Assembly: GCA_023266475.1 (NCBI GenBank)
Contig: JAHFQA010000008.1
Span: 1-35,166 of the forward strand
Reading direction: 5' to 3'
Origin: Candidatus Woesearchaeota archaeon
Lineage (GTDB): Archaea; Nanobdellota; Nanobdellia; Woesearchaeales; GW2011-AR4
Length of the DNA stretch: 35,166 bases
This document shows, in pieces, positions 1 through 20,189 of this stretch. The translations under genes were made by a program, and so were the position numbers. The number at the start of each line of letters is the position of its first letter. The first letter of the stretch is position 1. The notes under the pieces were generated by a model. It was not told the origin of the DNA and did no database searches. It saw only the letters and a program-made list of their open reading frames with translations.

Positions 1-1704
1 TTCAGTTATATTTTGGGTTAAATTTAGCGTTATATTTTCGGTTATATTCAAGGAAATATTGGCAGTTATGTTTGCAGTTAAGTTCAATTGCGTTATATTT
101 AATGTTATATTTGAATTGCCCTCGATAAATCCCGGGTCATTTGCAGTCAAAGTTATATCATATTTTTCCCCAATAGTCAAGTCTTTTATTTTCTCCCAAG
201 AGCCGAAGCAAACCTCCCTTTCATAATCCCACAGCTTGCATTTAAACAATGAATTTCCTGTTGCAGTCGCAGTCAAAGTTGCCTTTTCAAACTCCAAATT
301 TTCAAGATTTATTGCATATCTTTTTGTTACATTAACATTCTCAAGGCTTATTTCTTTTGTTACATTATCAATGCCTATGCCAGCAATTACCGGCTTTGTC
401 AAGTTTGCATTTTCTATTGTTAATTTCTCAATAACATCAACATCTGGTGTAATCTCAACATTGTAATAATCCGGGTCTAATATTTCGCTTGTTACATTGA
501 CATTGTCTTTGTAAATGGCATAGCTTCCGGACTGCATGCCTTGGCTGTCAATAATTGAAATATTTACTGCAACTTTTGGCAATTCCTCAATTAATGAGTA
601 TGTTATTGTGTCAAGATTCAATGTCGCATTCTCTATCTCAAAAATTAATTTATAGGTTGACAAATTAAAGCCGCTCAGTGTGCAAGTTTCAACGCAAACA
701 TTCCTGAAGTCAATTATTTCAAAATAGAAATCTGCGCTTAAGTTCTTCCAGGCCGAATAATAGATTTCAGCAAATGGCTCGTCTGCATTTAAGCTGTAGT
801 CAACATAAAGTATTTGCGAGCTTATAGTATTTTTCAACGAAGTACCATATTGGCCATAGGTGGCATAAAATACATCATTCCAGTTGTCTCTCTTTGGAAC
901 TAATCCAACATAATTGCAGCATTTGGAATTGCCGTAGCATATGCTTGTCACTTTTTCGTCATCAATGGAATAAGTATCCCATCTGGTGCATAAGTTTTCT
1001 TTTTTAACATCCCAGTTGAAATTGGCATTTTCAACTGTCATGTCTATGATTCCGCTCAAAGGCTCAATGCCATTATCGTCTCTGTCGTAGGCAGTTTCTG
1101 ATTTATAGTTAAGGCTGATTGCTATTGATTTTTCAGGCACAATCAGCTTAACTTCTTTTGTTGTTGACTTATCACCATCAGTTGCTGTAAATGATATTGT
1201 TGCTGTGAAATTATTACCTGTTGGAGTAAGAGTTACTATGCTGTTGTCTATCCCAATTTCTATTCTATTTGGCGTTGTGAATAAGTAGGCAAGCGAATCG
1301 TTCTCTGCGTCAATGAAGTAATTGCCCAAGTCTATAGAAGTCTTTCCATTCAGGATAAATTCTTCTACATCAGATTTCCATACAGGAGGTGTATTTGCTT
1401 CTTTGGATTTTTCAGGTTTCACTTTTTCCTCTTTTTTAGATTCATCAATAACAGTTTCATTAATTACAGTTGTATTTTCAGAAATTGTGATGTTTGCAGA
1501 GTTTTCAACAACATTTACGATGTTAGCAGTTGCATTATCAGCATTATTTGTTTTACTGTCATTATCTTTGATTTTATTTTCTTTAACTGCAAATCCTGTT
1601 AATGCATTATTATTTGAATTGCAGGATGCTAAGATCAAGAGCAATGTGATTATTGCAATTAAATAAAACACTCCAACTTTTTTAATTTCAAATTCGTCAG
1701 TCAT
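1..1704 (-). CDS. Large secreted/surface protein with TM-LTGFAV N-terminus, partial (C-terminus off left edge)
   Basis: The frame is open from ATG 1704-1702 to base 1: 568 codons without a stop. A hydrophobic segment (residues about 12-27) ends in ILASC, which fits a lipobox with Cys28, followed by an Asn-rich spacer and LTGFAV (35-40), the motif shared with other surface proteins here. Next come an acidic/Asn-rich linker, a cadherin-like beta domain (about 110-190, with FTATDGD), and a Cys-containing beta-rich region (CYGNSKCCNY, then VCVETC). The visible C-terminal end is a chain of N-x-T/S sequons. The protein is probably exported and glycosylated. Its ATG overlaps the stop of the upstream repeat-HTH gene (ATGA), so the two are probably one translationally coupled transcript. 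Whether the N-terminus is lipidated, cleaved or a TM anchor cannot be told. Function is unknown. Confidence 0.85.
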   Translation of the reverse strand, partial: MTDEFEIKKVGVFYLIAIITLLLILASCNSNNNALTGFAVKENKIKDNDSKTNNADNATANIVNVVENSANITISENTTVINETVIDESKKEEKVKPEKSKEANTPPVWKSDVEEFILNGKTSIDLGNYFIDAENDSLAYLFTTPNRIEIGIDNSIVTLTPTGNNFTATISFTATDGDKSTTKEVKLIVPEKSIAISLNYKSETAYDRDDNGIEPLSGIIDMTVENANFNWDVKKENLCTRWDTYSIDDEKVTSICYGNSKCCNYVGLVPKRDNWNDVFYATYGQYGTSLKNTISSQILYVDYSLNADEPFAEIYYSAWKNLSADFYFEIIDFRNVCVETCTLSGFNLSTYKLIFEIENATLNLDTITYSLIEELPKVAVNISIIDSQGMQSGSYAIYKDNVNVTSEILDPDYYNVEITPDVDVIEKLTIENANLTKPVIAGIGIDNVTKEISLENVNVTKRYAINLENLEFEKATLTATATGNSLFKCKLWDYEREVCFGSWEKIKDLTIGEKYDITLTANDPGFIEGNSNITLNITQLNLTANITANISLNITENITLNLTQNITE

Positions 1705-2207
1705 TTTTTCTTTTTCTTGGCTCTTTGGTAAACTGTCCAGATCGTCCTGTCATTTCTGTTAAGCAGCACAGCAATTTTGTGATACGTAAGCCCAAAAGTG
1801 TCTTTGAAGTAAGAAACAATATTTTCCAGAACGCTTAGATTTCTGTCCTTCAAAATTGAAACAGGAATAGAATAAGGAGAAATTTCTTCAATGAATTTTG
1901 CTTCTAATTTTTTCTTTGAATTTCTGTATGTAACAGCTAATGCAATTTCGTTTCTGTTGGTTAATTCAGCTATTTGCTTGTATGTAAGAAGAAGGTTTTC
2001 TCTTAGATATTTTACAATTATTTCCAAAGAGCTTAATTGGTCATTCTTGAAAACAGAAAGAGGAACTTTGACTTCCCCCTTGGCTTCAACTTTAAGTGAT
2101 TTGACTACTAATTTTAGAATTTCATCTGGACTCAAGCCTTGCTCTTTGAGATAGCTTAAAGTATCTAAAAGCTTTATTTCAATATCCTTTCCCTCTTTTA
2201 TTGGCAT
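1701..2207 (-). CDS. Tandem-repeat HTH DNA-binding protein (copy A)
   Basis: 168 aa. An N-terminal helical part (1-45) is followed by two homologous units of about 53 residues, at 49-100 and 114-166. Each runs VPLSVFKN or IPVSILKD, then a helix with LE.IV.Y.(R/K), then a helix-turn-helix such as YHKIAVLLNRNDRTIWTVY with a basic tail. The HTH resembles sigma-70 region 4-type folds, but I do not recognise a named family. Two DNA-reading units in one chain suggest binding to direct repeats. The TATGTAAGTA array lies on its own promoter: one copy 8 nt before the ATG and one over the TATA-like tract about 30 nt upstream, so autoregulation is likely (inference). The stop overlaps the ATG of the surface-protein gene. 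A clear paralogue with the same arrangement lies at 6787-7347. Confidence 0.85.
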   Translation of the reverse strand: MPIKEGKDIEIKLLDTLSYLKEQGLSPDEILKLVVKSLKVEAKGEVKVPLSVFKNDQLSSLEIIVKYLRENLLLTYKQIAELTNRNEIALAVTYRNSKKKLEAKFIEEISPYSIPVSILKDRNLSVLENIVSYFKDTFGLTYHKIAVLLNRNDRTIWTVYQRAKKKKK

Positions 2208-2214
2208 ATTACAT

Positions 2215-2349
2215 TATGTAAGTAGAATAATATATTATATAAGTATTAATAGATATTATGTAAGTATTAATATTAATTATGTAAGTATTAACAAAAGCAA
2301 TAACTTTATCATTACATAATATGTAAAATTTTAGTATACTATGTAAGTA
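2215..2349 (+). repeat. 21-bp-phased TATGTAAGTA array (iteron/operator-like)
   Basis: The 10-mer TATGTAAGTA, mostly followed by TTAAT, starts at 2215, 2236 (as TATATAAGTA), 2257 and 2278: three successive steps of exactly 21 bp, i.e. two helical turns. A weaker copy (TATGTAAAAT) starts at 2320, two steps further, as the right arm of a perfect 7+1+7 inverted repeat TTACATAATATGTAA (2312-2326). Another exact copy starts at 2340. All copies point the same way. The first four cover the start codon, probable transcription start and TATA region of the leftward HTH gene. Confidence 0.8.
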
Positions 2350-2828
2350 TTGATTATGATTGATTAAGTACCCAAAACTTGCATTCATTTTGATTTTCTA
2401 CAGATTAATTAATCCTTATACGATGCACTAAACTCCCCAAGATTTACAAGCAAGAAGTAGCCTATAGAACTGTAAATCCAAGTTTAGTATCTAATATTTT
2501 GAATATATCTATATTATGTAAGTAATCAATGTTCTGAATTAATCTATAGTTCAACATTATAACATACTATGTAAGTAGTAACTATTTAAAGTTTTCGTTT
2601 TCGTGAAAAAAACAGAATTCCAGGAGCCATGTTTCTCTTGTTTTATCTTAACATAATAAAAAATTGTCCTTAATAATATGAGAGATCTATCTTAATGATG
2701 GTACAGTTATAGTTATCATATGTCTCATAAGTAGCAAAACTTGTTATGTCTACCTTATAAGTTGCCGCACGATACCAATTAAGCTGTTACGATTCATACT
2801 ATTTTTCACCTTAATCAAATAATACTAG

Positions 2829-2881
2829 AAACTGGTCTCATTCAAATATCTATTCAATTGTTTATTCAAATAAATATATAT
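2829..2881 (+). repeat. Degenerate 53-bp direct repeat, copy 1 (copy 2 at 3308-3360)
   Basis: Aligned by eye without gaps, 39 of 53 positions match copy 2. The last 29 bases (2853-2881 versus 3332-3360) match at 26 of 29. The region is very AT-rich, so part of the similarity may be compositional. Confidence 0.4.
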
Positions 2882-3544
2882 TTTAACAGTATAAATATAT
2901 AATTTGTAAGTACAAAATCTTAAGTTAGAGTTAGTCACCTAGGTAGTCTGATAAAAGGATAAAAGAATAAAAATATTAAAGAAAAAGTGGAAATTCTGAT
3001 TAATCTATATTAGAACTAACCTCATTTATAACTATTATAACCTTTATAAAAAATTTGCTATCTATCCTCATCAAACAATGTGCAATCATTCTACAATTTA
3101 TATTTTTTATAATAATCTTTAGTACCTATAGTTTATATAATAGGAATTCTATATTTAATTACCATAATCCTAAACTTCATCTAAACCTTTATGACCATTA
3201 TAAGTATTACACTCCTTTAAACACCTCCTAAATAATGGGATTTAAAGTTATTAGGGATAATGCATAGTTTACCTATGGACTCACAGCAAACTTGCTTTCA
3301 ATTTATTAAAACAGGCTCTTTCGAATGAACTTTCAAATGTTTAATCAAATGAATATATATGATGTAGGTTAAAACAATTATTATATAGGTAAATTATGAT
3401 TAATTTATCAATTTTCAACTATATGGATAAACATTACATAATATAAATAGTAATACATAATATGTAAGTATTATTAGATAAGAGATTAAACCAGTATATG
3501 CAGCAATAAATTAGAATTACTAAAGATTAAACGATTAAGAGTAT

Positions 3545-3697
3545 TTAGCTAGAAGTTCCCTGGTATTCTTCAAGCTCTTGCTGAGCTTCTGGCCTAAGCA
3601 GCTTCTTGATTACTTCTTCATAGCTTTCGCCTTTCATTCCTTTTGTCTTAAGCCAGTCATGAAATTTTCTACTTATAGGTATAGTTGTAACAGTCAT
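3545..3697 (-). CDS. Small antitoxin-like protein (VapB/UPF0330-like)
   Basis: 50 aa, read directly from the sequence. It starts MTVTTIPISRKFHDWLK, contains GESYEEVIKKLL in the middle and ends in an acidic helix and TSS. The pattern of a short beta strand, a basic helix and then G-E-S-Y-x-x-V-I-x-x-L-L matches short archaeal antitoxins of the VapB/UPF0330 kind. No PIN-domain or other toxin gene is next to it, so it is an orphan or acts as a stand-alone regulator. The start codon lies inside a 6-11-6 inverted repeat (3693-3715), as expected for an autoregulated antitoxin. The toxin-antitoxin assignment rests on sequence pattern only. Confidence 0.6.
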   Translation of the reverse strand: MTVTTIPISRKFHDWLKTKGMKGESYEEVIKKLLRPEAQQELEEYQGTSS

Positions 3698-6145: not shown

Positions 6146-6790
6146 TCAACTATTATTATTGTTTTTTTTGTCGTATATTAAATATTTTTTGCCGTCCTTT
6201 TCAATATAAATCTTTACTATTCCATTTCCTCCAATACTGCCTGTTGCCCTCATAGATGTCATTGTTCCAGGCTTGCCTAATCTCAGAGTATAATTGCCGC
6301 TTTCATTTAGCTTCAGGTTCAACGATTTGTTGTATGTAACTTCTTTTCCCAATACAACATGGCCAGTAATAGATGGCTTTAGTATAAATAGGCTTGTAAA
6401 TAATAGCAATAATACAAGGGCTGGAATGGCAATTTTAACTATTGGATTTTGATGCTTGAGTTTGCTCCCAAAATTTCCAATGAAACCGATGTCATTTTTA
6501 TCTTTTTTTGTTAAAACTCTCTCTTTTTTCTCTATAACAAGCTCTGAATTGGATACCTTAAGCTTATATTTTTCTATGTATTCTGTGTGGAACTCGACCC
6601 AGTCATTTAAATAAGAAATTTCCTCTTTAAGATCAATGTCATGAAATACATTTTGAAGTTTCGAATTTGCATTTACTTCAATTTCGTTATATATGTAAAG
6701 CAAAATAGATTTATGATTATTAAGTTTATTTACTTTTTCTTCTAATTCAATCAGCTTTCTCTTGTAAATTTGTATTCTTTCGTTGTTCAT
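6146..6790 (-). CDS. Membrane protein: cytoplasmic coiled coil, TM, SITGHVV and short extracellular domain
   Basis: 214 aa. A charged, helix-rich N-terminal region (1-115, coiled-coil-like) precedes a single TM (about 117-137), SITGHVV (140-146) and a domain of about 60 residues. That domain is clearly paralogous to the one in the 318-aa protein: NESGNYTLRLGKPG and IYIEKDGKKYLIYD versus NESGTYEWQVKNPG and VYIEKNGSKLLLFD. It ends abruptly in KKNNNNS right after an A8 run (6162-6169). Skipping one A would add about 20 residues and end in TGA overlapping the next gene's ATG, so a frameshift or length polymorphism is possible. Its ATG overlaps the stop of the HTH gene upstream (ATGA), the same arrangement as at 1704. 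Confidence 0.75.
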   Translation of the reverse strand: MNNERIQIYKRKLIELEEKVNKLNNHKSILLYIYNEIEVNANSKLQNVFHDIDLKEEISYLNDWVEFHTEYIEKYKLKVSNSELVIEKKERVLTKKDKNDIGFIGNFGSKLKHQNPIVKIAIPALVLLLLFTSLFILKPSITGHVVLGKEVTYNKSLNLKLNESGNYTLRLGKPGTMTSMRATGSIGGNGIVKIYIEKDGKKYLIYDKKNNNNS

Positions 6791-7347
6791 TTTTTCTTTT
6801 TATAAGCTCTATTGTAGACAGTCCATACGTTCCTTTCGTCGCGATTGAGCAGGGCAGAAATTTCACTGTAACGCAAATTGAAATCATCTTTGAGATAGCG
6901 CACTATTGACTCAAGAACACTAAATCTTCTGTCTTTGAAAATTAGAGTAGGGATAAAGAATTGTGATTCTTTTACATCCAGCTTTTTCTGCCTTTTCTTG
7001 CATGCTGCATTATAAGTGGCCCAGATTGTTCTGTCATCCCTATTTAGAATCAGTGCTATTTGATGAAACCTAAAGTTAAATTCTTCTTTAAGATATTTTA
7101 CAATCGTTTCCAGGCATCCTAATTCATCGTTATCAAAAGCGGAAATTGGAATACATACTTCATCACAAATTTTTCTGCCTTCAATTAAGCTAAAAATTTC
7201 CTTATTGGAAATATTGTATCGCTTCTTTAATCTAATAATAGAATCTTTAACCTTGAAAAAGTCTGAGTCAATGCTAATTGAAAAAAGCTTGTTGGTATTA
7301 TAAATTCTTAGGTTATTTCGCGTTTTTTCAGACTTTAAGTGAGGCAT
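6787..7347 (-). CDS. Tandem-repeat HTH DNA-binding protein (copy B)
   Basis: 186 aa, paralogue of the protein at 1701-2207. Two homologous units lie at 66-118 (IPISAFDNDELGCLETIVKY, HQIALILNRDDRTIWATY) and 132-185 (IPTLIFKDRRFSVLESIVRY, SEISALLNRDERNVWTVY), after a divergent N-terminal part. The conserved core is I-A-x-L-L-N-R-(D/N)-(D/E)-R-x-(I/V)-W-x-x-Y. TATGTAAGTA-like sites lie just upstream of its ATG, and the downstream surface-protein gene overlaps its stop. It probably regulates the leftward operon 7347 to 5144 or beyond. The name 'sigma-70 region 4-like' describes only the HTH pattern; I have no family match. Confidence 0.85.
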   Translation of the reverse strand: MPHLKSEKTRNNLRIYNTNKLFSISIDSDFFKVKDSIIRLKKRYNISNKEIFSLIEGRKICDEVCIPISAFDNDELGCLETIVKYLKEEFNFRFHQIALILNRDDRTIWATYNAACKKRQKKLDVKESQFFIPTLIFKDRRFSVLESIVRYLKDDFNLRYSEISALLNRDERNVWTVYNRAYKKKK

Positions 7348-7358
7348 TACTTATTATA

Positions 7359-7447
7359 TATGTAATTAAATATATAAATATTTCTATAAATTCAGTGAAT
7401 ACTTATTATGTATGTATAATTCAAACAAAGTTATTCCTATGTAATAT
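7359..7447 (+). promoter_or_regulatory. Operator-like sites upstream of HTH copy B
   Basis: TATGTAATTA (7359-7368) and TATGTATGTA (7407-7416) each match TATGTAAGTA at 9 of 10 positions. TATGTAATAT (7438-7447) is weaker. They have the same orientation relative to the gene as the array at copy A. The first lies between the TATA-like AAATATATAAAT (about 7369-7380) and the start codon. Confidence 0.5.
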
Positions 7448-12541: not shown

Positions 12542-13555
12542 ATGTATTTTATAACATCCAAGCCTGACAGGGAATCGCTCGAACTTGCAAAAAATGTAGT
12601 AGGCTTTTTGAGAGAAAGCAAAGTAAAATATGCATTAGGCAAAAATATTCCAATAACTGGAAATAAGAAAGAATTAAATGAATTTGATTGCGAGCTCTTG
12701 GTTGCTGTAGGCGACGACAGGTTTATACTTGAAACATTCAGAAAGCTGGACAAGAAACAAATACCGCTTTTTGCAATTTCTCCCAACCAAAGCTTTCTGG
12801 CACAGGCGAATTCCACAAATTTCAAGTACTATATCAGCCTGATAAAAAGAAATAAGTATGAAATATCAAAGAGGTCAAGGCTTGCTGCCAGCTTTAATGA
12901 GGCTTCAAGCCCCATAGCACTCAATGATATTGGCTTGTTCTCATATAAAAGCGCATCATTGCTCAAATATAATTTGATATTAAATGATAATATATTTTGG
13001 AAAGATATGGGAGATGGGTTAGTTGTTGCCACGCCAACAGGAAGCACTGGCTATTCTTTGTCTGCCGGCGGCCCAATAATTCTGGATGAGCCAAACATCT
13101 TAACTTTAACACCTATTTCTTCGATGGAAAAACATTCATCTATAGTTATATCTGATAAAACAAAAATAAAGATAGATGGCATTGAAGGCTATAATCCTAT
13201 TCTGATAGTAGATGGGGAAGTGAGAATTCCTGTTAAATCAAGGGAAATTCTTATAGAAAAATCACCTTATAATGCAAATTTTATTGTGTTTTCCAAGGAA
13301 TATTCTTTGGAAAGCAGATTGAAGAAAAGATCTGTTAAAGTAAATATTAATAAGCTTAGAGATTTGCCGGCAAGCTCAAAGCTTATATACAAAATTCTGC
13401 AGCATGAGAGCAGCATGACGCAAAAGGAAATTATAAACGCGTCTTTGCTTCCAGATAGGACGGTTAGATATTCTATTGAAGTGTTATTGAGGAAAGGGCT
13501 GATATCAAGCCAGCCACATTTTAGCGACGCAAGGCAAGCAGTTTACAGCGTTTGA
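12542..13555 (+). CDS. NAD-kinase-like domain fused to a C-terminal winged helix
   Basis: 337 aa. Residues 1-265 are NAD kinase-like: ALNDIGLF (126-133) and GDGLVVATPTGSTGYSLSAG (157-176) are the NAD-binding and substrate motifs. The nucleotide-binding GGDGT motif is altered to VGDDR (56-60), the following G-N/GFLT segment to ISPNQSFLAQ, and the usual N-E to N-D. Residues about 275-332 form a winged helix (MTQKEIINASLLPDRTVRYS, then LLRKGLISSQ). Ordinary NAD kinases are about 250-300 aa and lack this tail. It faces the nad operon across a dyad. Either it is a kinase with a regulatory tail, or a catalytically weak NAD(P) sensor that acts as transcription factor (inference). Domain assignment is strong, function is open. 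Confidence 0.85.
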   Translation: MYFITSKPDRESLELAKNVVGFLRESKVKYALGKNIPITGNKKELNEFDCELLVAVGDDRFILETFRKLDKKQIPLFAISPNQSFLAQANSTNFKYYISLIKRNKYEISKRSRLAASFNEASSPIALNDIGLFSYKSASLLKYNLILNDNIFWKDMGDGLVVATPTGSTGYSLSAGGPIILDEPNILTLTPISSMEKHSSIVISDKTKIKIDGIEGYNPILIVDGEVRIPVKSREILIEKSPYNANFIVFSKEYSLESRLKKRSVKVNINKLRDLPASSKLIYKILQHESSMTQKEIINASLLPDRTVRYSIEVLLRKGLISSQPHFSDARQAVYSV

Positions 13556-16496: not shown

Positions 16497-16538
16497 TTTA
16501 TATAAATATGAGTTTAAAACAACGACTTGAGAGGTGAT
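16497..16538 (+). promoter_or_regulatory. ppsA TATA box and ribosome binding site
   Basis: TTTATATAAATA (16497-16508) is a good TATA box. GAGGTGAT (16531-16538) is a near-perfect archaeal Shine-Dalgarno, 6 nt before TTG 16545. It argues for that TTG rather than TTG 16527, which would lie upstream of it. Confidence 0.65.
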
Positions 16539-16544
16539 ATTGTT

Positions 16545-19500
16545 TTGCGCAAAGACAAGAAGTTTATTCTATGGTTTAATGAGCTTGAATTAGAAGATGT
16601 CCCTATTGTTGGCGGCAAGAACGCCTCTTTGGGAGAGATGTATAGGAATCTGACAAAGAAGGGCGTCAAGGTTCCAAATGGATTTGCGTTGACGGCGTAT
16701 GCCTATAATTATTTTCTTGAAAAAGCAAAAATAAAAGACGAGCTTAAGAAAATTCTAGAGGGATTGGACACTTCAAATATGAGAAATTTGTCTGAAAGGG
16801 GAAGAAAAGCAAGGGAAACAATCCTGAGAGCAGAATTTCCAAAAGAACTGAAAGATGAAATAGTATTTTCATATAAGAAATTATGCAGGCAATATGGAAC
16901 TAATACAGATGTGGCAGTCAGGAGTTCTGCGACAGCAGAGGATTTGCCTGATGCAAGCTTTGCAGGCCAGCAGGAAACTTACCTGAATATACGAGGAGAT
17001 CATGCCTTGCTGGAAGCAAGCAAGAAATGCATTGCATCCTTGTTTACAAACAGGGCTATCTCCTACAGGGTGGATAAGCACTTTGGCCATTTTAAGATTT
17101 CCTTGTCTGTAGGCGTTCAAAAAATGGTGAGAAGCGACAAGGCATGCTCAGGTGTAATGTTTTCAATAGACACAGAAACTGGTTTTAAGGAAGCTGTTCT
17201 AATCAATGGAGCCTATGGGTTGGGGGAAAATGTCGTGCAAGGCTCTGTTAATCCTGACCAGTTTTACGTATTCAAGCCGACTCTGAAAAAAGGCTACAAG
17301 CCTGTTATAAGCAAGAAGTTGGGCAGTAAGAAAATTAAAATGGTTTATAGCGAGCAAGGCTCTAAAACCACTACAGAAAATGTTGAAGTTCCATACAATG
17401 CGCGCTTTAAATTTGTTTTGAACGACAATGAAATTTTGAAGCTTGCAAAGTGGGCTTGCATTATTGAAGATTATTATTCACAAAAAGCCAAAAAATTCAA
17501 GCCAATGGACATGGAATGGGCGAAAGACGGCACTACAAATGAGCTTTTTATCGTGCAGGCCCGTCCTGAGACTGTGCAAAGCCAGAAAAACATGAATATT
17601 CTTGAAGAATATGTTCTGAAAGAAAAAGGAGCATTGATTATGACTGGATTAAGCGTCGGTAGAAAAATAGGAGCTGGAAAGTCCCATGTTATAAAAAACG
17701 TCAACGATATTGGAAATTTCAAAACTGGAGAAGTTCTGATAACAGAAAAAACAGACCCAGACTGGGAGCCCATAATGAAAATTGCTTCTGCAATCGTCAC
17801 AAACAAGGGTGGAAGAACTTGTTTTGCAGGAGATACAAAAATACTGACAAATAAGGGATTTATGGAGATTAAGGGCATATATGAAGACTATGAAGGGCTT
17901 ATGGTTCCTTCGTTAAACAGAGACACCCTTAAAATAGAATGGAAAAATATAAATGGTGTTATGAAAAGAAAAGCAAGCCTAATTGAAATTTCAGTTTCTC
18001 AAACTGGAAAGAGCAAGAATAATAAAATAAGACTTACCAATGACCACAAAGTATTAACATTATCTAATCGCAAGTTGATCTCTAAGGAAATTAATAAAAT
18101 ACTTTCTGATGGAGGACATCTGTTAGTTGCCCAGCATATTCCTAGTCCATTAATGTCCAGTAATAGAGAAATAAAGCTTGCATACATGCTTGGAGCGATT
18201 ATGACTGATGGTCATATCCATACGAGCAGGACACATGGAGAAATAACTTTTATACAGTCTCCAAAGGAATATAAAGAGAAGTTTATAGAAAAAATGCAGG
18301 AATTTGCTTTGGATATCTTTGGAAAAGGATTCAAAGTTTCTAAAAAGAGTGAAATTGGCGGCATTATAGAGGGAAGACAGATTATTGGAAGTGGAAATGC
18401 ATACAGATTATATAGCAAAGAAATGGCTTACGAATTTAAATCAAAAGTAGAATCAATAACTAAAACTCTAATCTATGCCGATGAAGAGTTAATTTTGAAT
18501 TTTCTGGGTGGAGTTATAGATGGTGATGGAACTTACAGTAAATCTTCAAACAGAATTAGTATTTACTGTTCCAAAAGAAATCTTATGGAAGCTATCATTA
18601 TATCCTGCTTAAGACTAAAAATTGTGCCGCAAATAACTCGAAATAGGAACATTTGGAACGTACAAATTGTGGAATCAGTTGAAAGATTGCTTAGTTATAC
18701 TAATAGGGTAAAAGGAAATTATAACAGAAAAACACACGGCACAAGATTTTTTTCATCAAGGCAATTATTGGGAGATATTGTCAAAAGAGTAAATTATAAA
18801 GGAAGAATTTTGACATATATCAGTAAAAATTTGCTTATAGATATTGAAAAAATTAAAAGGAACGTGATGCCGCTGTGTTCTGACGAAGTAAAAAAAGAAA
18901 TCCAAAAAATATACTTATCAGATACACGAATGCTAAGGACTAAATTCATTAGGGAAGTGGGTTTTGATGATGTTTATAATATCTCAGTGGAAGACAATTA
19001 CAATTACGTTGTTTTTACACAAGATTATAGTCCTTTATTAGTCAATAACTGCCATGCTGCAATCATAACGAGAGAGCTTGGAATTCCTGCGATTGTGGGT
19101 ACAGAGCACGGGACAGAGCTTGTCAAGACAGGAACAGATGTAACGGTGAGCTGCGCAGAAGGCGAAGTTGGAAAAGTTTACAAGGGAAAATTAAGATTTG
19201 AAATTCGCAAAGTTGATTTAAAGAAATTAAAAAGGTCCAAGACAGAAATAATGATGAATGTCGGCAATCCTGACCAAGCATTTGAATTTTCTTTCATACC
19301 AAACGATGGAGTTGGACTTGCAAGAGAGGAATTCATCATTAGCTCTTACATTAAAGTTCATCCATTGGCATTGCTGCACTATAGTAAATTGAAAGACAAG
19401 AATGTAAAAGCAATTATTGACGAATTGACTTTTGCCTACAAAAACAGGGTTGATTTTTTCATTGAAAAGCTTGCCCAAGGAGTTGCAATGATTGGGGCTG

Positions 19501-20189
19501 CTTTTTACCCAAAGGATGTGATTGTTAGGATGTCTGATTTCAAAAGCAATGAATATGCAAATTTGATTGGCGGTGCAGAATTTGAGCCAAAAGAAGAAAA
19601 CCCGATGATTGGATGGAGGGGTGCATCAAGATATTATACAGGAAATTATAGGGATGCATTTGCTCTTGAGTGCATGGCAATGAAAAAAGCGCGAGATGAA
19701 ATGGGATTAACTAACATAAAACTTATGATTCCGTTTTGCAGGACTATTGATGAAGGCAAAGCCGTTGTAGATGAAATGAAGAAGCATGGGCTTGTCCAAG
19801 GAAAAAATGGATTAAAAATTTATGTCATGTGCGAAATTCCTTCGAATGTTATTTTGGCTGATGACTTTGCGAAGATTTTTGACGGATTTTCAATTGGAAG
19901 CAATGACTTGACTCAGCTGACACTTGGGTTGGATAGGGATTCGGAATTGGTCAGCAGGTTGTATGACGAGAGGAATCCGGCTGTGAAGAGAATGATTTAT
20001 GAAGTTATTCACAAAGCGAAGAGAAATAAGACAAAAATCGGCTACTGTGGCCAAGGAGCTTCAGATAAGGAGGATTTTGCATTATTTTTGGTCCAGTGTG
20101 GAATAGACAGTATATCACTAAATCCTGATACTGTTCTTAAAACTACACTGAAAATAACAGAAATGGAAAAGAGATTGAAAAAGAAATAA
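16545..20189 (+). CDS. ppsA: Phosphoenolpyruvate synthase precursor, containing an intein
   Basis: 1214 codons from TTG 16545; extein about 804 aa, usual for PpsA. The N-terminal ATP-binding domain has VGGKNASLGEMYRNL and AVRSSATAEDLPDASFAGQQ. The mobile domain is GGRT|CHAAIITRELGIPAIVG, whose His takes the phosphate; the intein splits it just before CHAA. The C-terminal TIM barrel has IGWRGASRYY, MCEIPSNVILADDF, FSIGSNDLTQLTLGLDRDS and GYCGQGASD with the catalytic Cys. It makes PEP from pyruvate and ATP and suggests gluconeogenic or anaplerotic flux. It is a single gene with its own promoter and Shine-Dalgarno. The protein is inactive until the intein is spliced out, as the insertion breaks the active-site motif. 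Confidence 0.96.
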   Translation: MRKDKKFILWFNELELEDVPIVGGKNASLGEMYRNLTKKGVKVPNGFALTAYAYNYFLEKAKIKDELKKILEGLDTSNMRNLSERGRKARETILRAEFPKELKDEIVFSYKKLCRQYGTNTDVAVRSSATAEDLPDASFAGQQETYLNIRGDHALLEASKKCIASLFTNRAISYRVDKHFGHFKISLSVGVQKMVRSDKACSGVMFSIDTETGFKEAVLINGAYGLGENVVQGSVNPDQFYVFKPTLKKGYKPVISKKLGSKKIKMVYSEQGSKTTTENVEVPYNARFKFVLNDNEILKLAKWACIIEDYYSQKAKKFKPMDMEWAKDGTTNELFIVQARPETVQSQKNMNILEEYVLKEKGALIMTGLSVGRKIGAGKSHVIKNVNDIGNFKTGEVLITEKTDPDWEPIMKIASAIVTNKGGRTCFAGDTKILTNKGFMEIKGIYEDYEGLMVPSLNRDTLKIEWKNINGVMKRKASLIEISVSQTGKSKNNKIRLTNDHKVLTLSNRKLISKEINKILSDGGHLLVAQHIPSPLMSSNREIKLAYMLGAIMTDGHIHTSRTHGEITFIQSPKEYKEKFIEKMQEFALDIFGKGFKVSKKSEIGGIIEGRQIIGSGNAYRLYSKEMAYEFKSKVESITKTLIYADEELILNFLGGVIDGDGTYSKSSNRISIYCSKRNLMEAIIISCLRLKIVPQITRNRNIWNVQIVESVERLLSYTNRVKGNYNRKTHGTRFFSSRQLLGDIVKRVNYKGRILTYISKNLLIDIEKIKRNVMPLCSDEVKKEIQKIYLSDTRMLRTKFIREVGFDDVYNISVEDNYNYVVFTQDYSPLLVNNCHAAIITRELGIPAIVGTEHGTELVKTGTDVTVSCAEGEVGKVYKGKLRFEIRKVDLKKLKRSKTEIMMNVGNPDQAFEFSFIPNDGVGLAREEFIISSYIKVHPLALLHYSKLKDKNVKAIIDELTFAYKNRVDFFIEKLAQGVAMIGAAFYPKDVIVRMSDFKSNEYANLIGGAEFEPKEENPMIGWRGASRYYTGNYRDAFALECMAMKKARDEMGLTNIKLMIPFCRTIDEGKAVVDEMKKHGLVQGKNGLKIYVMCEIPSNVILADDFAKIFDGFSIGSNDLTQLTLGLDRDSELVSRLYDERNPAVKRMIYEVIHKAKRNKTKIGYCGQGASDKEDFALFLVQCGIDSISLNPDTVLKTTLKITEMEKRLKKK
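17820..19049 (+). other. Intein with LAGLIDADG homing endonuclease (in PEP synthase)
   Basis: 410 aa, in frame. It starts with Cys1 (CFAGDTKILTNKGFMEIKG, block A), has TNDH at about 73-76 (block B), and two LAGLIDADG-type motifs: MLGAIMTDG (about 123) and FLGGVIDGDG (about 228). Block F is VYNISVEDNYNYVVF. The C-terminal splice junction is LLVNN followed by Cys+1. The usual penultimate His is Asn here, which may slow C-terminal cleavage but occurs in other inteins. The endonuclease acidic residues are intact, so homing may still work. Inteins at this conserved PEP synthase site are known in other archaea. Confidence 0.93.

Follow-up and report, generated by a model that had tools for sequence, protein, structure and literature searches.

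What do near-identical repeats at 21-bp steps in front of a gene for a tandem-HTH protein do, and which part of that protein would read which part of a repeat? The window in which this question arises, the whole stretch of DNA that was analysed, covers 35,166 nucleotides of a contig from a Woesearchaeota (DPANN) MAG of 1.32 Mb (88% complete), the genome that we searched for exact copies of the repeated 10-mer, TATGTAAGTA. The features of the locus are collected in Table 1.

Phased repeats upstream of a tandem-HTH gene

Copies of the 10-mer start at 2215, 2236 (as TATATAAGTA, with one mismatch), 2257 and 2278, and a further exact copy starts at 2340; all lie on the plus strand, antisense to the regulator gene. 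Tandem Repeats Finder delimited the array at 2206–2291 (period 21, 4.0 copies), and in 2000 dinucleotide-preserving shuffles of 2208–3547 the maximum was one exact copy (observed 7) and five copies at up to one mismatch (observed 9), with a longest 21-bp run of one copy (observed 4), which confirms the phased copies that an initial annotation of this sequence had pointed out. Three more exact copies (2515, 2568 and 3461) and one with a single mismatch (2903), in the same orientation, had escaped that annotation; there is indeed a site at its weak copy at 2320, but it is a near-palindrome with an orientation opposite to that of the array copies. As it stated, one site overlaps the TATA region, namely operator copy 2, inside which the TATA-like TTATATAA (2235–2242) sits, and another the start region, namely copy 1. 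In the genome as a whole TATGTAAGTA occurs exactly eight times, and seven of the eight copies are within this intergenic region. A CRISPR or known RNA was rejected, as Rfam had no match at gathering score over the array; a sub-threshold match to CRISPR-DR44 (27.6 versus 35 bits) is explained by the repeat itself. The 1.3-kb non-coding region has at its far end a 49-aa ORF (3548–3697, minus strand) that by eye resembles a small archaeal VapB-type antitoxin.

Table 1 Features of the P0001 and P0002 loci; operators and promoters are predicted (positions in the window)
Feature	Position	Strand	Detail
Start of gene for large membrane-anchored surface protein	1..1704	-	ATGA overlap with P0001
P0001, 168-aa tandem sigma70-region-4-like HTH regulator	1701..2207	-	Pfam, AF2, structure match
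Operator copy 1	2208..2224	-	exact 10-mer 2215-2224; abuts start codon
Operator copy 2, TACTTATATAATA	2229..2245	-	15.8 bits
Operator copy 3	2250..2266	-	19.2 bits
Operator copy 4	2271..2287	-	18.1 bits
Near-palindromic site ATTACATAATATGTAA	about 2309..2329	.	14.1 bits (+), 10.2 bits (-)
Operator copy with one exact 10-mer	2333..2349	-	11.5 bits
Conserved hairpin between P2 and proximal array	2424..2492	-	alignment fold, 7 orthologues
Second P2 operator	2508..2524	-	15.8 bits; spacing kept in orthologues
P2 operator, 13 bp from TATA box start	2561..2577	-	18.0 bits
TATA box TTTAAATA of distal promoter P2	2583..2590	-	(c)GAAAgCTTTAAATA-type in 11/12 orthologues
Distal weak operator	2896..2912	-	10.8 bits
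Distal strong operator, near palindrome	3454..3470	-	21.9 bits
P0002 partner, 214 aa	6146..6790	-	coiled coil, TM, SITGHVV; ATGA overlap
P0002, paralogous tandem-HTH regulator, RDERNVW unit 2	6787..7347	-	E 5.5e-33 to P0001
P0002 operator TACATATATAATAAGTA	7348..7364	-	17.1 bits
TTTATATA box near P0002 operator	7371-7378		
P0002 operator TACATACATAATAAGTA	7400..7416	-	18.9 bits

The two HTH units previously read from the P0001 sequence are supported by Pfam, AF2 and structure matching. Against Pfam Sigma70_r4_2 (cut-off 25.7) P0001 scores 31.5 bits and its paralogue P0002 stays under the cut-off at 23.3 bits. The AF2 model of P0001 (pLDDT 88) comprises two HTH units behind an N-terminal helical stretch. 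Each unit matches sigma region 4 structures, and one superposes on sigma region 4 of 5fgm at 0.8 A over 45 columns; neither sequence search nor structure comparison found a solved structure matching the whole chain. Sigma region 2 is absent among the Pfam matches of P0001, which is therefore not a sigma factor. A LytTR domain was also absent in the Pfam search, where HTH families were matched instead, and P0001 itself has no TM segment. Elsewhere in the window, both on the plus strand, are a phosphoenolpyruvate synthase gene split by an intein (16527–20189; TIGR01445) and a gene whose product joins an NAD kinase domain to a C-terminal winged-helix DNA-binding domain (12542–13555), possibly a redox-cofactor-linked regulator.

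Predicted family operators and the proposed reading of half-sites

From the window's order, 102 homologues were gathered, and de novo k-mers were counted in 101 of their upstream regions. Enriched there, chiefly in sense orientation, is TACTTACA...ATAATAAG/ATAATAGG; TACTTACA was found in 37 upstream regions as sense versus 3 as antisense. Expectation maximisation (EM) from the k-mer consensus gave the full site, a 17-bp pseudo-palindrome, TACTTACATAATAAGTA. Sites of at least 12 bits occur in 76% of the family's own upstream regions versus 0 of 218 other genes, and in only 0.8% of dinucleotide shuffles; the PWM here scores the upstream regions that trained it, and the strand asymmetry of the k-mers is independent of it. 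This restriction to the family's own genes supports the autoregulatory operator that the initial annotation had proposed. Consecutive sites are 20–22 bp apart in 39% of cases, and spacings, also those between non-adjacent copies, obey multiples of 10.5 bp (R=0.54, n=83), which bears out the helical phasing suggested for the array. Repeats are phased as listed, yet the preferred position of a site is after the TATA box, with a peak of the TATA-to-operator offset at +12/+13. The family was found in 126 of 279 sampled genomes of the phylum; these belong to the order of the window and to further families of the same class. Three members (L180, L181 and L182, from G103, G183 and G099; 314–338 aa) carry two tandem pairs, that is, four HTH units.

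Orthologues of P0001 (55–81% identity) are present in 11 other genomes of its family, and same-orientation sites stand upstream in 11 of the 12, so the related genomes that the initial annotation had named as a check do carry them. Only G020 has lost the sites, and other sequence precedes its gene. The proximal 21-bp array is found in about 7 of 12 (G000, G003, G004, G010, G011, G012; a pair in G030) and absent in G016, G006, G027 and G028; this absence and the loss in G020 count against the operator reading. More conserved than the proximal array (11/12 versus ~7/12) is the element of the putative distal promoter P2, ~370 bp upstream, in which a TATA box of TTTAAATA type is followed by an operator 13 bp from the start of the box and by a second one ~53 bp (5 turns) further on. 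Among the orthologues G020 alone lacks this element; in two others, G016 and G028, it stands directly before the regulator gene. Between P2 and the proximal array, the hairpin at 2424–2492 has 20 pairs, of which 4 changed on both sides among 7 sequences (compensatory); it has one copy in the genome and no family in Rfam, and a phage origin was dropped as no match was found.

To assign the HTH units to parts of the site, we used covariation, taken as background-corrected mutual information linking columns of the protein to positions of the site. The ten strongest pairs mostly join recognition-helix residues of unit 1 (N86, I88, A91, V92, T93) with bases of the right half, and those of unit 2 (N152, D153, R154, T155) with bases of the left half, at mirror positions. 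The pattern is mirror-symmetric, R154 covarying with C4 and I88 with G16. In unit 2, T155 goes with T5 (58/67) and N155 with A5 (11/17); in unit 1, R88 goes with T17 (33/38) and K88 with A17 (22/23). Among 10,712 window placements the two helices take rank 18, with the top placements falling on the same helices, and in a circular-shift control (p=0.016) they were equalled only by shifts of 1–2 residues either way. Our chief worry is that shared ancestry could produce such a signal: a tree-aware test of independent pairs did not reach significance, because the protein is short and its tree offers too few well-supported branches. Exceptions to the code include G005a and G003_L101. Within the clade of P0001, unit 1 carries IALAV (NEIALAVTY) and the AAGTA half is absent; unit 1 has here diverged and the right half changed alongside it.

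Single-unit homologues should need dimerisation, and their near-perfect palindromes (TACTTACAWTGTAAGTA type) thus provide an independent check of the half-site reading. Their arms match at 7.4 of 8 positions, versus 4.4 in tandem homologues, and a single-unit RNIW protein has TACATATATTGTATGTA, with TACAT and hence the predicted base in both halves. Because of the covariation and these palindromes, we consider it most likely that one tandem protein occupies one 17-bp site as a covalent pseudo-dimer; with each unit reading its own half of the site, a 21-bp repeat would correspond to one protein, and the array is most likely a series of head-to-tail sites. The earlier suggestion that the two units grip neighbouring repeats does not agree with this assignment of units to half-sites, and was replaced by it.

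A probable operon with a surface protein and its proposed control

The initial annotation had placed operators at the regulator's own gene, as we do, and had overlooked the overlapping downstream gene for a giant surface protein. The P0001 partner is cut by the contig end (at least 568 aa; TM at residue 5) and has a sub-threshold Big_9-like Ig domain; complete orthologues measure 2565 aa (L082) and 1441 aa (L084). A neighbour could be read for 98 homologues; in 85 of them the gene that follows overlaps that of the regulator (by 4 bases, mostly ATGA, in 42), and by simple hydropathy 82 of these 85 partners have a TM segment in the first 250 residues. Control genes of the same loci overlap in 22 of 191 cases, 12 of them with a TM segment. 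The partners examined have laminin-G-like, cadherin-like, Ig-like or carbohydrate-binding domains, or none recognised. A recurrent family of ~240-aa partners (G048a, G050a/b, G040b, G097a, G062, G069, G054, G098, G088) was recognised by eye, and the one checked, G048a, matched nothing in Pfam; (S)ITGFxV right behind the TM segment and a small NYTW...YLIFDS domain are shared by other partners.

Natural fusions, with the tandem HTH as the C-terminal end of a giant surface protein, occur in seven genomes that belong to other families within the class (L191–L197 in G307, G268, G172, G262, G234, G151 and G295). These frames of 1412–3456 aa have an N-terminal coiled-coil-like stretch and a TM segment, three of the seven have a TACATA-type site upstream, and the fusion in G295 carries four HTH units. 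The hydrophobic stretch ahead of the C-terminal HTH is short, and this HTH may face the cytoplasm; as the cytoplasmic tail of the giant, it might make a membrane-tethered receptor-regulator. What looked like two further fusions, in G202 and G135, turned out to be assembly gaps filled with N and not proteins.

From these sequence comparisons it appears highly probable that the repeats serve as cognate operators, one protein to a site, for an operon that regulates itself. One P0001 molecule would bind one 17-bp pseudo-palindrome, unit 2 on the left half (TACTT) and unit 1 on the right. As head-to-tail sites lie two helical turns apart, bound molecules would align on a single DNA face and probably cooperate. 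P0001, when bound to phased sites on and behind the TATA boxes, may repress its own operon, a sign that we consider reasonably likely because the sites overlap or directly follow these boxes. The giant surface protein would be made from the same operon, translated via the stop-start overlap, and, being produced in step with P0001, might modulate it; to such feedback we give about even chances. The sites, their phasing, the covariation, the gene overlap and the fusions can be read directly from the sequences; DNA binding, cooperativity, the sign of regulation and membrane signalling we infer from this arrangement. Simple repression leaves the long 1.3-kb non-coding region and the far sites unaccounted for.

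A site near the TATA box could also fit activation, and we regard as possible, if on the unlikely side, a positive autoregulation in which P0001 activates from phased repeats in LytTR-like fashion and is inhibited by its membrane partner until a signal arrives. The order of regulator and membrane-protein genes and the direct repeats at the promoter are as in LytTR systems (PMC6193735), and many family sites lie upstream of the TATA box, phased to it at −29/−30 and −40; however, the most regular operator begins 13 bp past the TATA start, over the polymerase loading region, and at P0001 itself one site covers the TATA-like element and another lies right against the start codon.

Relatedness to sigma factors, which act globally, would suit a global regulator for which the local sites are one part of a large regulon. 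This is improbable, since the single exact site off the locus (1/8) is at chance level (reversed-pattern controls gave 1 and 2) and TATA-plus-operator matches in the genome number 7 versus 5 in the control; a site excess elsewhere in the genome was not found. Phased direct repeats within a long AT-rich non-coding region would also suit the iteron-like nucleation that the initial annotation had considered, in which the tandem-HTH protein would nucleate a site for replication or partition. We give this very little credence: no replication gene or initiator is linked to the locus, orc1/cdc6 genes being on other contigs or, in G030, ~196 kb off; genomes hold up to ten family genes with sites at those genes themselves; and the sites follow promoter and gene rather than replicon. 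An operator for autoregulation, probably by repression, is the reading that we carry forward.

Comparison with known systems

ECF sigma/anti-sigma pairs resemble the P0001 operon in the sigma region 4 fold and in the overlap with a membrane-protein gene. In an ECF sigma factor region 2 binds polymerase and the −10 element, whereas P0001 has no region 2, has two region-4 units and would work at archaeal TATA-type promoters. Woesearchaeota are uncultured, probably host-dependent archaea, and the large surface proteins to which these regulators are linked probably mediate contact with other cells. We tentatively suggest a lineage-wide archaeal surface sensing, in which each giant may be paired with its own regulator and a private, evolvable 17-bp operator, the fused subset being membrane-tethered receptor-regulators, maybe for host contact. 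The natural series of single, tandem, four-unit and membrane-fused proteins would trace a path from homodimer to single chain to diverged halves.

The LytTR systems HdrRM and BrsRM (PMC6193735) are likewise two-gene operons in which a TM protein follows a DNA-binding regulator, and direct repeats at their promoters serve autoregulation. P0001 differs in its domain, a tandem sigma-region-4-like HTH and not LytTR, in its sites, which are pseudo-palindromes in helical arrays and often behind the TATA box, and in its partner, a large surface protein with which fusions exist. The fused homologues, like ToxR/CadC-type transmembrane regulators (PMC10269533), join a DNA-binding domain to a membrane protein; in contrast, P0001 is soluble, and the fused HTH is C-terminal to an ectodomain of >1000 aa. 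A 2021 study reported that 'sigma-70' fam00359 is prevalent in Woesearchaeota, found no anti-sigma and called the mechanism unclear (PMC8204110). The P0001 family probably includes fam00359-type proteins, to which our analysis adds a proposed operator code and membrane partner. A literature search of incomplete coverage found neither these operators nor the recognition code nor a coupling to surface proteins described, in support of the initial annotation's view of an undescribed regulator family. These puzzling 'sigma-70' proteins thereby gain a predicted target and a residue-to-base code testable by point mutation. In its working this is a regulator/membrane-partner system, and its DNA-binding architecture is new for that role.
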